From the IMG/VR virus record IMGVR_UViG_3300022592_000003, positions 25,243 to 89,242 of that record: 64,000 nt of DNA, one strand, 5' to 3'. The notes beneath the pieces are model-generated. The model worked only from the letters and a program-made list of their open reading frames with translations, did no database searches and was not told where the DNA came from. The first letter of the stretch is position 1. Each line of letters opens with the position of its first letter. Positions 40,733-44,654 of the stretch are shown piece after piece. The position numbers and the translations under genes are program-made. The stretch comes from a virus.

Positions 40733-41281
40733 CTAGGCGTTGATAGACTCCTTCTCCTGTACCTGATTTAACTGGTATTGAGAGAGCAACTTCTCAAACT
40801 TGACCTTCAGAGCCATTACTAATGCGTCAGACGCAGGAGTAGGCACGATGATGGTCTTGGCTACCTTGTCGAACTGGTCGCTAAGTGCTTCCAATTGGGC
40901 GACAATGGCTGTACCCGCTAATGCGTCAGCCATAGCCAATGACTTTGCTTCGTCAATGGCAAGGCTAGACACACGAGCGAGTTCAGCACGCATCTCCTCA
41001 GGTGTATTCTTGACCTGAATAGATGAGTAGTTATTAGCAATGAAGGTGATGTTCATAGACTTGGCGTCTACGCCAGACTTATGGACATACCAAGCAGCAT
41101 AGGCTGTACCGATGTTCTGCTTACCCTTCAAGCCCACGAGAATATGCTCGGGGGTAACAGCAGGGTCAGCAACATACTCCGCTACTATCTCGGAGATGTG
41201 CCAGCCCTTCTTGTCGTTGAAGCGTGAACAGAGGGCATTGAGACGTGCCTGTGTTGCGTCATTAAGCGTCGCTAGTGACAT
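40733..41281 (-). CDS. hypothetical protein, first gene of the minus block
   Basis: 182 residues from ATG at 41281 (GAGAAAG upstream); an upstream GTG start would lack a site. Alpha-helical (LNDATQARLNALCSRFNDKK, AELARVSSLAIDEAKSLAMA). First gene of the accessory block, so probably the earliest expressed; many phages put host-takeover proteins here. No family recognised. Confidence 0.72.
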   Translation of the reverse strand: MSLATLNDATQARLNALCSRFNDKKGWHISEIVAEYVADPAVTPEHILVGLKGKQNIGTAYAAWYVHKSGVDAKSMNITFIANNYSSIQVKNTPEEMRAELARVSSLAIDEAKSLAMADALAGTAIVAQLEALSDQFDKVAKTIIVPTPASDALVMALKVKFEKLLSQYQLNQVQEKESINA

Positions 41282-41617
41282 TTGGCTTGCTTTCTCGGGT
41301 GTAGGTCGTTCGCCTAGACCCGCCCCCACCCACCAGCAACGCTGATGAGTGAGAGCGGGTGTAGGAGTCGGAGTCCTTTCCCTTTCTTGCCCCTTATGGG
41401 TTACAAACTTGTATCAAACCCCCCCACCTTTAACGAACTCGCCACACGCCGATTGACGAGGCGAGACGAACTAGCAGCTCCTGGGTGGGGTAGGCAGTGG
41501 CCTAATCTCGATATGTGAGATAGCTCACTGCGGGGGAAGTTGGGAGGCGGAAAGCAACTAACTATGATCATAGTTTTCATGGAGGAAAATTTTTGGGGTA
41601 GCTGTACAATCTAGGCA
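41282..41617. promoter_or_regulatory. divergent control region
   Basis: 336 bases without a gene. It holds hairpins CTCGCC/GGCGAG (41438-41465) and GTGAG/CTCAC (41515-41528), a direct repeat TAGGCAGTGG (41501 and 41612), and a 16-bp perfect palindrome AACTATGATCATAGTT (41560-41575), a typical operator shape. It separates the minus-strand accessory block from the plus-strand block, so it likely controls both. Confidence 0.55.
41605..41610 (+). promoter_or_regulatory. -10 box for a leaderless GTG gene
   Basis: TACAAT seven bases before GTG at 41618, the spacing of leaderless actinobacterial mRNAs. No -35 is evident. Confidence 0.4.
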
Positions 41618-42290: not shown

Positions 42291-42797
42291 ATGGCACACC
42301 CATATCAAAACCCAGGTAAAGACCAATATAACGATCGCTATCCAGATTGGTCAAAACATACCAAGACAGTGGTGGTACAACCACCAGTAACGATCCAATC
42401 CCTCTTTCCCCAGTTCAATCGCTGGGCTATTGGATTCGATCCCCTCTTAGAGACCCTAAGCAACATCAGCGCCTCTGCAAAGACAAGTAGCTACCCGCCC
42501 TATAACATCTACAAGGATGAGGACAAATACGTCCTAGAACTGGCTGTAGCAGGCTTTGGCAAGGAAGATATCACTATCTCGGTAAAAGAGCTCCAGTTGA
42601 CCGTAGAAGGCCAATTAGAGGCATCTGAGGACGAACCTATCCATAAGGGAATCGCTACCAGAGACTTCAAGCAGAACTTCGCTCTAGCGGAGTATGTAGT
42701 AGTCAAGGGAGCAGAGATGAAGGATGGCATGCTCCGTATTACCTTGAAGCAGGAATTACCTGAAGAGCTACAACCCAAGATTATCAAAATCAAGTAA
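42291..42797 (+). CDS. hsp20: Hsp20/alpha-crystallin small heat-shock protein
   Basis: 168 residues. YPPYNIYKDEDKYVLELAVA with GFGKEDITISVKELQLTVEG and LRITLKQELPEEL form the alpha-crystallin domain (about residues 64-165). Such chaperones hold unfolding proteins and occur in many aquatic phages, probably helping virion protein folding. It has its own promoter. Confidence 0.88.
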   Translation: MAHPYQNPGKDQYNDRYPDWSKHTKTVVVQPPVTIQSLFPQFNRWAIGFDPLLETLSNISASAKTSSYPPYNIYKDEDKYVLELAVAGFGKEDITISVKELQLTVEGQLEASEDEPIHKGIATRDFKQNFALAEYVVVKGAEMKDGMLRITLKQELPEELQPKIIKIK

Positions 42798-42815: not shown

Positions 42816-43060
42816 ATAGAGCTCCAGTAGGTACCGCAGTCAGGGGCCCTCTTCCTAACGAGGGCTTCGATAACCCTGTAGGCATTGGGCCTACTGGAAC
42901 TACAACTATTGACCACGACTCTGAACAAGTCATCGTCAGTTCGTTACTACTGAACCTAACCTGTGAGAAGCATCATACGAAGGTGTTCAGACCGAAAGAG
43001 ATTGCTCTGCTAACTCACTAGGTAGTAACAGGCAGCAGGCTTTAACCGTGGCTGTCAATC
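42816..43060 (+). ncRNA. structured noncoding RNA
   Basis: No gene. Domain 1: TCCAGTAGG/CCTACTGGA (42823-42831 with 42890-42898) enclosing CAGGG/CCCTG (42841-42845 with 42874-42878) and GCCCTC/GAGGGC (42846-42851 with 42860-42865). Domain 2: ATTGACCACG pairs with CGTG and GTCAAT (42908-42917 with 43047-43050 and 43054-43059), holding CTGAACA/TGTTCAG, TCAGT/ACTGA and GTGAG/CTCAC, two of which would form a pseudoknot. It sits between a promoter and tRNA-Asn. Function unknown. Confidence 0.65.
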
Positions 43061-43061
43061 T

Positions 43062-43134
43062 TGACCTTTAGCTCAGCTGGCAGAGCACTCGACTGTTAAT
43101 CGAGTTGTCCCTGGTTCGAACCCAGGAAGGTCAG
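43062..43134 (+). tRNA. tRNA-Asn (anticodon GTT)
   Basis: Acceptor TGACCTT/AAGGTCA, D stem GCTC/GAGC, anticodon stem CTCGA/TCGAG with loop CTGTTAA (anticodon GTT), T stem CCTGG/CCAGG with loop TTCGAAC, discriminator G. CCA not encoded. Directly abuts the tRNA minihelix that follows. Confidence 0.93.
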
Positions 43135-43175
43135 GGGAGTAAATGGCCATCCCAGTTCGACTCTGGGTACTCCCA
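43135..43175 (+). ncRNA. tRNA minihelix (acceptor and T arm only)
   Basis: GGGAGTA/TACTCCC acceptor (7 bp), 9-base link AATGGCCAT in place of the D and anticodon arms, T stem CCCAG/CTGGG with canonical loop TTCGACT, discriminator A at 43175. All pairs are perfect. It is either a decayed tRNA or a selected minihelix. Confidence 0.7.
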
Positions 43176-43177
43176 CG

Positions 43178-43224
43178 GGGGCGTAAGTGTGATTCCGTAT
43201 GAAAGATTACGATCTTTACGCCCC
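43178..43224 (+). terminator. hairpin closing the tRNA unit
   Basis: GGGGCGTAA/TTACGCCCC (43178-43186 with 43216-43224), 29-base loop. May end the RNA unit or stabilise the precursor. Confidence 0.5.
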
Positions 43225-43273
43225 GCCTTATTTGTAAGTACATAGTTCCCCGCCGAAAGTTTGGAGAAGGTAA

Positions 43274-44087: not shown

Positions 44088-44654
44088 ATGACAACGATCG
44101 CTGCAATCCAAGGTGACGGCTGGGTAGTAATGGGTGGAGACACTCAATCTACTGTGGCTGAGTATAAGCGCCTAGTTATGTCTAACGACAAGGTAATTAA
44201 CAACAATGGCATTCTCATTGCCGGTTGTGGTATGGGTCGTGGCATGGATCTATTGCAGAAGGCTTGGAAGGCTCCAAAGCCCCGCCCAAATCAGAGCATC
44301 GCTCAACTAGATGCGTGGATGGCGAAAACTTTTATTCCCGGAATGCGTAAGCTCTTTATTGAAGGTGGCTACGACATGAAGGATGACGGCGACTACGCCC
44401 AGCACGAAGGTGCATTTATCGTAGCTGTCCAGGGAGTTGTCTTCTATATTGACGACGACTATTCATTTGACCGTGAGGCTCGTGGAATTACTGCCTCAGG
44501 TAGCGGCGGCGACTTTGCCACAGGTTCTTTATATGGCAAGGATCTCTCAACCATTGATGCAGCCTGTGACGCTATGAGGACCGCTATTGATGCCGCTAGG
44601 GCATATGACGTATATTCTGGTGGAGAGACTCGGATTTACGTACAAGAAGCGTAA
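44088..44654 (+). CDS. proteasome beta-subunit-like Ntn hydrolase
   Basis: 188 residues; GAGGG upstream of ATG. After Met removal the sequence starts TTIAAIQGDGWVVMGGDTQS: Thr1 and Asp17 fall at the proteasome positions and a Lys occurs at 34 (NDKVINN), close to Lys33. SGSGGDFATGSL matches the later GSG strand. These residues form the threonine protease active site. No alpha subunit or HslU-like ATPase is adjacent. It sits before the PASTA-family genes, so virion protein processing or host protein removal are both possible. Confidence 0.7.
   Translation: MTTIAAIQGDGWVVMGGDTQSTVAEYKRLVMSNDKVINNNGILIAGCGMGRGMDLLQKAWKAPKPRPNQSIAQLDAWMAKTFIPGMRKLFIEGGYDMKDDGDYAQHEGAFIVAVQGVVFYIDDDYSFDREARGITASGSGGDFATGSLYGKDLSTIDAACDAMRTAIDAARAYDVYSGGETRIYVQEA

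Follow-up and report, generated by a model that had tools for sequence, protein, structure and literature searches.

The window analysed here, a 64-kb stretch of freshwater phage DNA corresponding to bases 25243-89242 of an 89-kb virus record, carries a tRNA-Asn gene followed by two small structured RNAs. The first of these, which we call the minihelix, is flanked by genes encoding an Hsp20 (42291-42797) and an HslV-like peptidase (44088-44654), both of which have homologues in many freshwater viral contigs. An actinobacterial host is likely, since the large terminase of this phage shares 51-53% identity with its counterparts in the Streptomyces phages BRock, LuckySocke, Alone3, GiJojo and pSt2308. 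The features discussed below are the following:

43062-43134, plus strand: tRNA-Asn (anticodon GTT), discriminator G at 43134 (Rfam RF00005, 66.1 bits; ARAGORN)
43135-43141, plus strand: 5' strand of the minihelix acceptor stem, GGGAGTA, pairing with 43168-43174 (sequence and fold)
43142-43150, plus strand: 9-nt linker, AATGGCCAT, replacing the D arm, the anticodon arm and part of the variable region
43151-43167, plus strand: T arm, CCCAG-TTCGACT-CTGGG (sequence and fold)
43168-43174, plus strand: 3' strand of the acceptor stem, TACTCCC (sequence and fold)
43175, plus strand: minihelix discriminator A (sequence)
43176-43227, plus strand: hairpin RNA H (covarying pairs in eight sequences; covariance-model matches)
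L228:1496-1536, minus strand: second, complete copy of the minihelix (40/41 identical) in genome G013 (IMGVR_UViG_3300020731_000031)

The 41-nt minihelix (43135-43175, plus strand) consists of a tRNA acceptor stem and T arm only. All 12 pairs of its 7-bp acceptor stem and 5-bp T stem are Watson-Crick pairs, and the anatomy given in the original prediction (7-bp acceptor stem, 5-bp T arm, TTCGACT loop and 9-base join) is exact in the sequence. The parts of a functional tRNA that are missing are the D arm and the anticodon arm, where only 9 nt are found, and no CCA is encoded at the 3' end. Neither ARAGORN nor Rfam calls the element as a gene. ARAGORN places tRNA-Asn at 43061-43135, i.e. one base over at each end compared with Rfam. 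Since the Rfam match ends at 43134 and the ARAGORN end is one base too long, the spacer is zero, as had been claimed: the first base of the minihelix (43135) follows the tRNA discriminator (43134).

The minihelix is the minimum free energy fold of its sequence, accounting for 95% of the ensemble (-17.4 kcal/mol, z -2.65), and tRNA-Asn, minihelix and H are recovered as three separate modules when 174 nt are folded together. Such structures are expected by chance at 2.9e-4 per 64-kb window according to an analytic estimate, and none occurred in 200 order-1 Markov-simulated windows. A loose scan of 1.8 Mb returned many chance or overlapping structures; the perfect ones were those of the window family alone. 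Furthermore, 71 T-arm elements lie near a tRNA but outside ARAGORN calls in the 333 loci that were fetched (585 distinct tRNA sequences), and the minihelix alone among them has both a fully paired acceptor stem and a linker no longer than 15 nt.

The original prediction proposed to look for the same truncated form in relatives, and one was found in the distant relative G013. The single difference between the two copies falls in the linker, AATGG(C/A)CAT; the truncation is the same and the stems are intact in both. The two genomes share about 72% nucleotide identity over 14 kb of alignable sequence, with their longest blocks at 77-78% and none longer than 120 bp above 78%. The binomial probability of at least 40/41 matches at the genome-average identity is about 3e-5, a rough value because functional RNAs evolve off the genome average. 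The decayed pairing and neighbour-like drift of a pseudogene are therefore not what is seen in an element that is 40/41 identical against a 72% background. The G013 copy lies at another locus, inverted relative to neighbouring genes, in a cluster ordered tRNA-Met, tRNA-Leu, hairpin X, minihelix, H', tRNA-Gln. Hairpin X exactly fills the interval between the tRNA-Leu discriminator and the minihelix; it has a bulged stem similar to that of H and is here the upstream element, unlike tRNA-Asn in the window. In this cluster, the minihelix therefore separates two hairpin RNAs (X and H'). Selection, which had been called plausible on the grounds that random decay would not keep 12 perfect pairs, is supported by the recurrence of this truncation at such a background identity. 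The pairs themselves are invariant between the two copies (n=2), so that their conservation is sequence identity and not covariation.

The neighbour that both copies have in common is the downstream hairpin H, which the original prediction did not include. The adjacency to tRNA-Asn that it emphasised holds in the window and is not an essential feature, the G013 minihelix following a hairpin. H, about 50 nt long, starts one base past the minihelix discriminator. Its alignment (8 sequences) contains 16 pairs, 7 of which show changes on both sides, as well as an invariant ATTCCGTATG core and a 2-nt UC bulge; H is presumed to have a function. Its covariance model (R2) gives 11 matches at 10 distinct loci, and in every H locus position 1 of the model is the discriminator base of the upstream element. 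This element is tRNA-Asn or tRNA-Met(CAT) in eight loci and the minihelix in two, the latter adjoining the 5' side of H in both genomes. Since H elsewhere directly follows a full tRNA, the minihelix takes the place of a tRNA before H. Moreover, H has diverged between the two genomes, whereas the adjoining minihelix has not.

The distribution of the minihelix is narrow. The HslV and Hsp20 proteins served to retrieve 160 related loci and the capsid protein 80 more, and whole records were also searched. The 150 related records, many of them fragments, were searched by covariance model or by a pattern that tolerated mismatches, and the minihelix was found in 2/150 contigs, with no further copy among these partly fragmentary records; neither MCP relatives nor distant Hsp20 relatives gave one. 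The minihelix covariance model (R1) also gave a weak match in G043 (E 0.016), rejected because it lies in a gene start region. In viral contigs, the exact minihelix pattern, which excluded the G013 linker change, had no match. A T-loop/acceptor pattern matched 14 contigs, one being the G013 minihelix and the others full tRNAs or other T-arm sequences, while a linker pattern matched 52 contigs, many through tRNA-Leu, with the G013 copy as the sole minihelix. In close relatives (L002, L004, L005, L013 and L238), the tRNA-Asn discriminator is directly followed by H; hence, compared with them, the 41 nt of the minihelix are a clean addition in the window. Relatives were also examined for the two outcomes that would have spoken against the original prediction, a full tRNA at this site or stems in decay, and neither was found.

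We tentatively favour the view that the minihelix is a maintained tRNA-derived module that serves as a processing signal in place of a tRNA, although we hold this short of an even chance. Among the three functions originally proposed (a processing signal, a substrate of RNase P or of the CCA enzyme, a decoy), it is the one that best fits the anatomy. An acceptor stem, T stem and T loop form the classical minimal substrate of RNase P, cut at the canonical site (PMC11143913, PMC11221534), and phage tRNA dimers with only a few bases between their members, such as T4 Pro-Ser, are split by RNase P (PMC11143913). Since minihelices are RNase P substrates and RNase P splits adjoining T4 tRNAs, a minimal tRNA surrogate is the best-supported reading. 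In its predicted fold the minihelix has this anatomy, with acceptor and T stems (7+5 bp) stacked coaxially and a T loop, and its being a substrate of RNase P or of the CCA enzyme is plausible from established biochemistry.

In such a scheme, tRNA-Asn, minihelix and H would be transcribed together, and host RNase P would cut between 43134 and 43135, directly exposing the tRNA-Asn discriminator. Cutting or trimming after 43175 would fall to the tRNA 3' maturation pathway (either RNase Z with CCA addition, or exonucleases) and would give H its 5' end. In G013, RNase P acting at the 5' side of the minihelix would free the 3' end of X. Two points count against a processing signal: RNase P cuts truncated substrates, and those without CCA, less well, and the element is rare among the related contigs. 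Moreover, the minihelix is not required to mature tRNA-Asn or H, since close relatives have both without it.

The main competing explanation, which we consider unlikely though deserving serious attention, is a persistent non-functional remnant. A tRNA inserted between tRNA-Asn and H would have lost its D and anticodon arms by internal deletion and would be undecayed as yet or recently copied between lineages. Its patchy distribution (2/150 contigs) is consistent with such a remnant, as are the lability of tRNA clusters, the zero-spacer tRNA tandems present in related loci and a linker like tRNA-Leu variable arms. The minihelix itself likely derives from a class II tRNA in which the whole segment from the 5' acceptor strand up to the variable arm was deleted, the linker resembling, as judged by eye in the 52 contigs matched by a linker and T-loop pattern, the 3' half of tRNA-Leu variable arms. 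This origin is suggestive only, because the search pattern was taken from the minihelix itself. However, a remnant accounts poorly for identical deletion boundaries and undamaged stems in two genomes that share 72% identity, and for the divergence of the adjacent hairpin next to an unchanged minihelix. Recent copying would require the transfer of some 41 nt with no flanking sequence, which would be unusual, and the G013 copy differs in genomic location and orientation.

More doubtful is a role in trans, in which the minihelix would be released, receive CCA and perhaps be aminoacylated, thereby competing for RNase P, the CCA enzyme, EF-Tu, a synthetase or a tRNA-targeting nuclease. The acceptor domain is complete with its discriminator A, and related phages encode another anticodon-less tRNA-like RNA, the ring-less mini-tmRNA described below. 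However, neither G3-U70 nor another clear minihelix identity set is present, a search for a phage CCA enzyme domain found none, and a diffusible decoy has no need of tight placement before H.

Two other explanations are very improbable. The 3' ends of tRNAs are commonly reproduced in phage attachment sites, which could make the element an attP core or integration scar with the 3' end of a host tRNA gene; however, the matching 5' acceptor strand, unneeded by an attP, is present, no tyrosine integrase domain (PF00589) was found in G000 or in the G013 fragment, and two patterns of the minihelix 3' end match none of 84,980 species genomes. A ribosome-binding site and small ORF start (GGGAG-TAA-ATG), with a frame opening MAIPVRLWVLPR... 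and MDIPVRLWVLPR... in the two genomes, would leave the perfect 12-bp tRNA geometry and canonical T loop beside a tRNA to coincidence; the spacing is just 3 nt, synonymous changes are absent and the frame diverges immediately past the minihelix.

Several known systems resemble the minihelix in part. As summarized in PMC11143913, the RNase P minihelix substrates AT1 and pATSer (McClain, Guerrier-Takada and Altman 1987) are laboratory constructs, whereas the window minihelix is phage-encoded, without CCA and with a 9-nt linker. The T4 dimeric precursors (Pro-Ser; PMC11143913) are similar in being closely spaced phage tRNAs without encoded CCA that are split by RNase P; the downstream partner here differs in being anticodon-less and therefore cannot be a translating tRNA. 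Phage P1/P7 C4 antisense RNA and bacteriophage M3 RNA, which PMC11143913 includes among the substrates of RNase P, are likewise non-tRNA phage RNAs matured by this enzyme, but they are not acceptor/T-arm tRNA derivatives within a tRNA cluster. The tRNA-like domain of tmRNA and the YrlA Y RNAs are also tRNA mimics without an anticodon arm. The minihelix differs from them: pair 3 is G-C, so that the G3-U70 of tmRNA is absent, and AATGGCCAT stands where tmRNA has the D-loop segment GGNNUCGAC. The phage's own record has no tmRNA match. In eukaryotes, MALAT1/MEN-beta mascRNA and the TMERs of gammaherpesvirus-68 place a tRNA-like module next to an RNA whose end is made by RNase P or RNase Z, and in TMERs the tRNA-like unit is followed by hairpins with no spacer. 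These have more complete tRNA-like folds and no homology with the minihelix.

Minihelices are familiar both from laboratory work, where tRNA is reduced to them, and as models for the early evolution of tRNA. We found no report of a phage-encoded one in the part of the literature that is open and was searched. Our analysis leaves room, below an even chance, for the broader idea that a tRNA was pared down by the phage to the acceptor domain and retained as a stand-alone mobile 41-nt module, for processing punctuation or for CCA-tailed mimicry in trans. If maintained, the minihelix would be a natural case of selection on the acceptor domain alone. Besides, this phage lineage has a tRNA cluster full of unannotated structured RNAs (minihelix, H, X and mini-tmRNA), and such clusters make roles of phage tRNA clusters beyond translation directly testable.

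The mini-tmRNA, of about 81 nt and without the ring, is encoded by the five Streptomyces phages BRock, LuckySocke, Alone3, GiJojo and pSt2308, and also by a freshwater relative:

L248:12807-12887: mini-tmRNA
L249:12697-12777: mini-tmRNA
L338, L339 and L340: mini-tmRNA
L012:2174-2254: mini-tmRNA of a freshwater relative of the window phage

It matches tmRNA from one end to the other, apart from the absent mRNA-like ring (gathering search: 57-65 bits in BRock and LuckySocke; 43.7 in L012, under the cut-off of 47). Its acceptor stem shows compensatory variation and retains the alanine identity pair G3-U70, and most copies retain a D-loop segment of the GGNNUCGAC type. It has no RNA annotation in the five Streptomyces phages, and a predicted CDS overlaps it in GiJojo. 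It may serve as a decoy in trans-translation or mimic a tRNA in the manner of a Y RNA. BRock gp191 and LuckySocke gp37, annotated as Ro-like RNA-binding protein, and an RNA ligase are encoded among dozens of tRNA genes (L248, L249), in genomes that also carry the mini-tmRNA. A Ro/Y RNA system was considered for the window phage and rejected, the TROVE domain PF05731 being absent from its possibly incomplete record.

Other structured elements occur near the minihelix. A longer one, with the sequence CATCATACGAAGGTGTTCAGACCGA..., lies upstream of tRNA-Asn at about 42920-43055; it has no Rfam match in the window and is shared by relatives (L003 1-180 and L097), where it precedes tRNA-Asn or tRNA-Gln. 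In addition, a divergent gene (40733-41329) has a leader hairpin on the minus strand of the window at about 41330-41400. The loop of this hairpin is T-loop-like (TTCGANT) in L084 3159-3203, L086 7-49, L013 1084-1131 and L094 3002-3044, and differs from this motif in the window.
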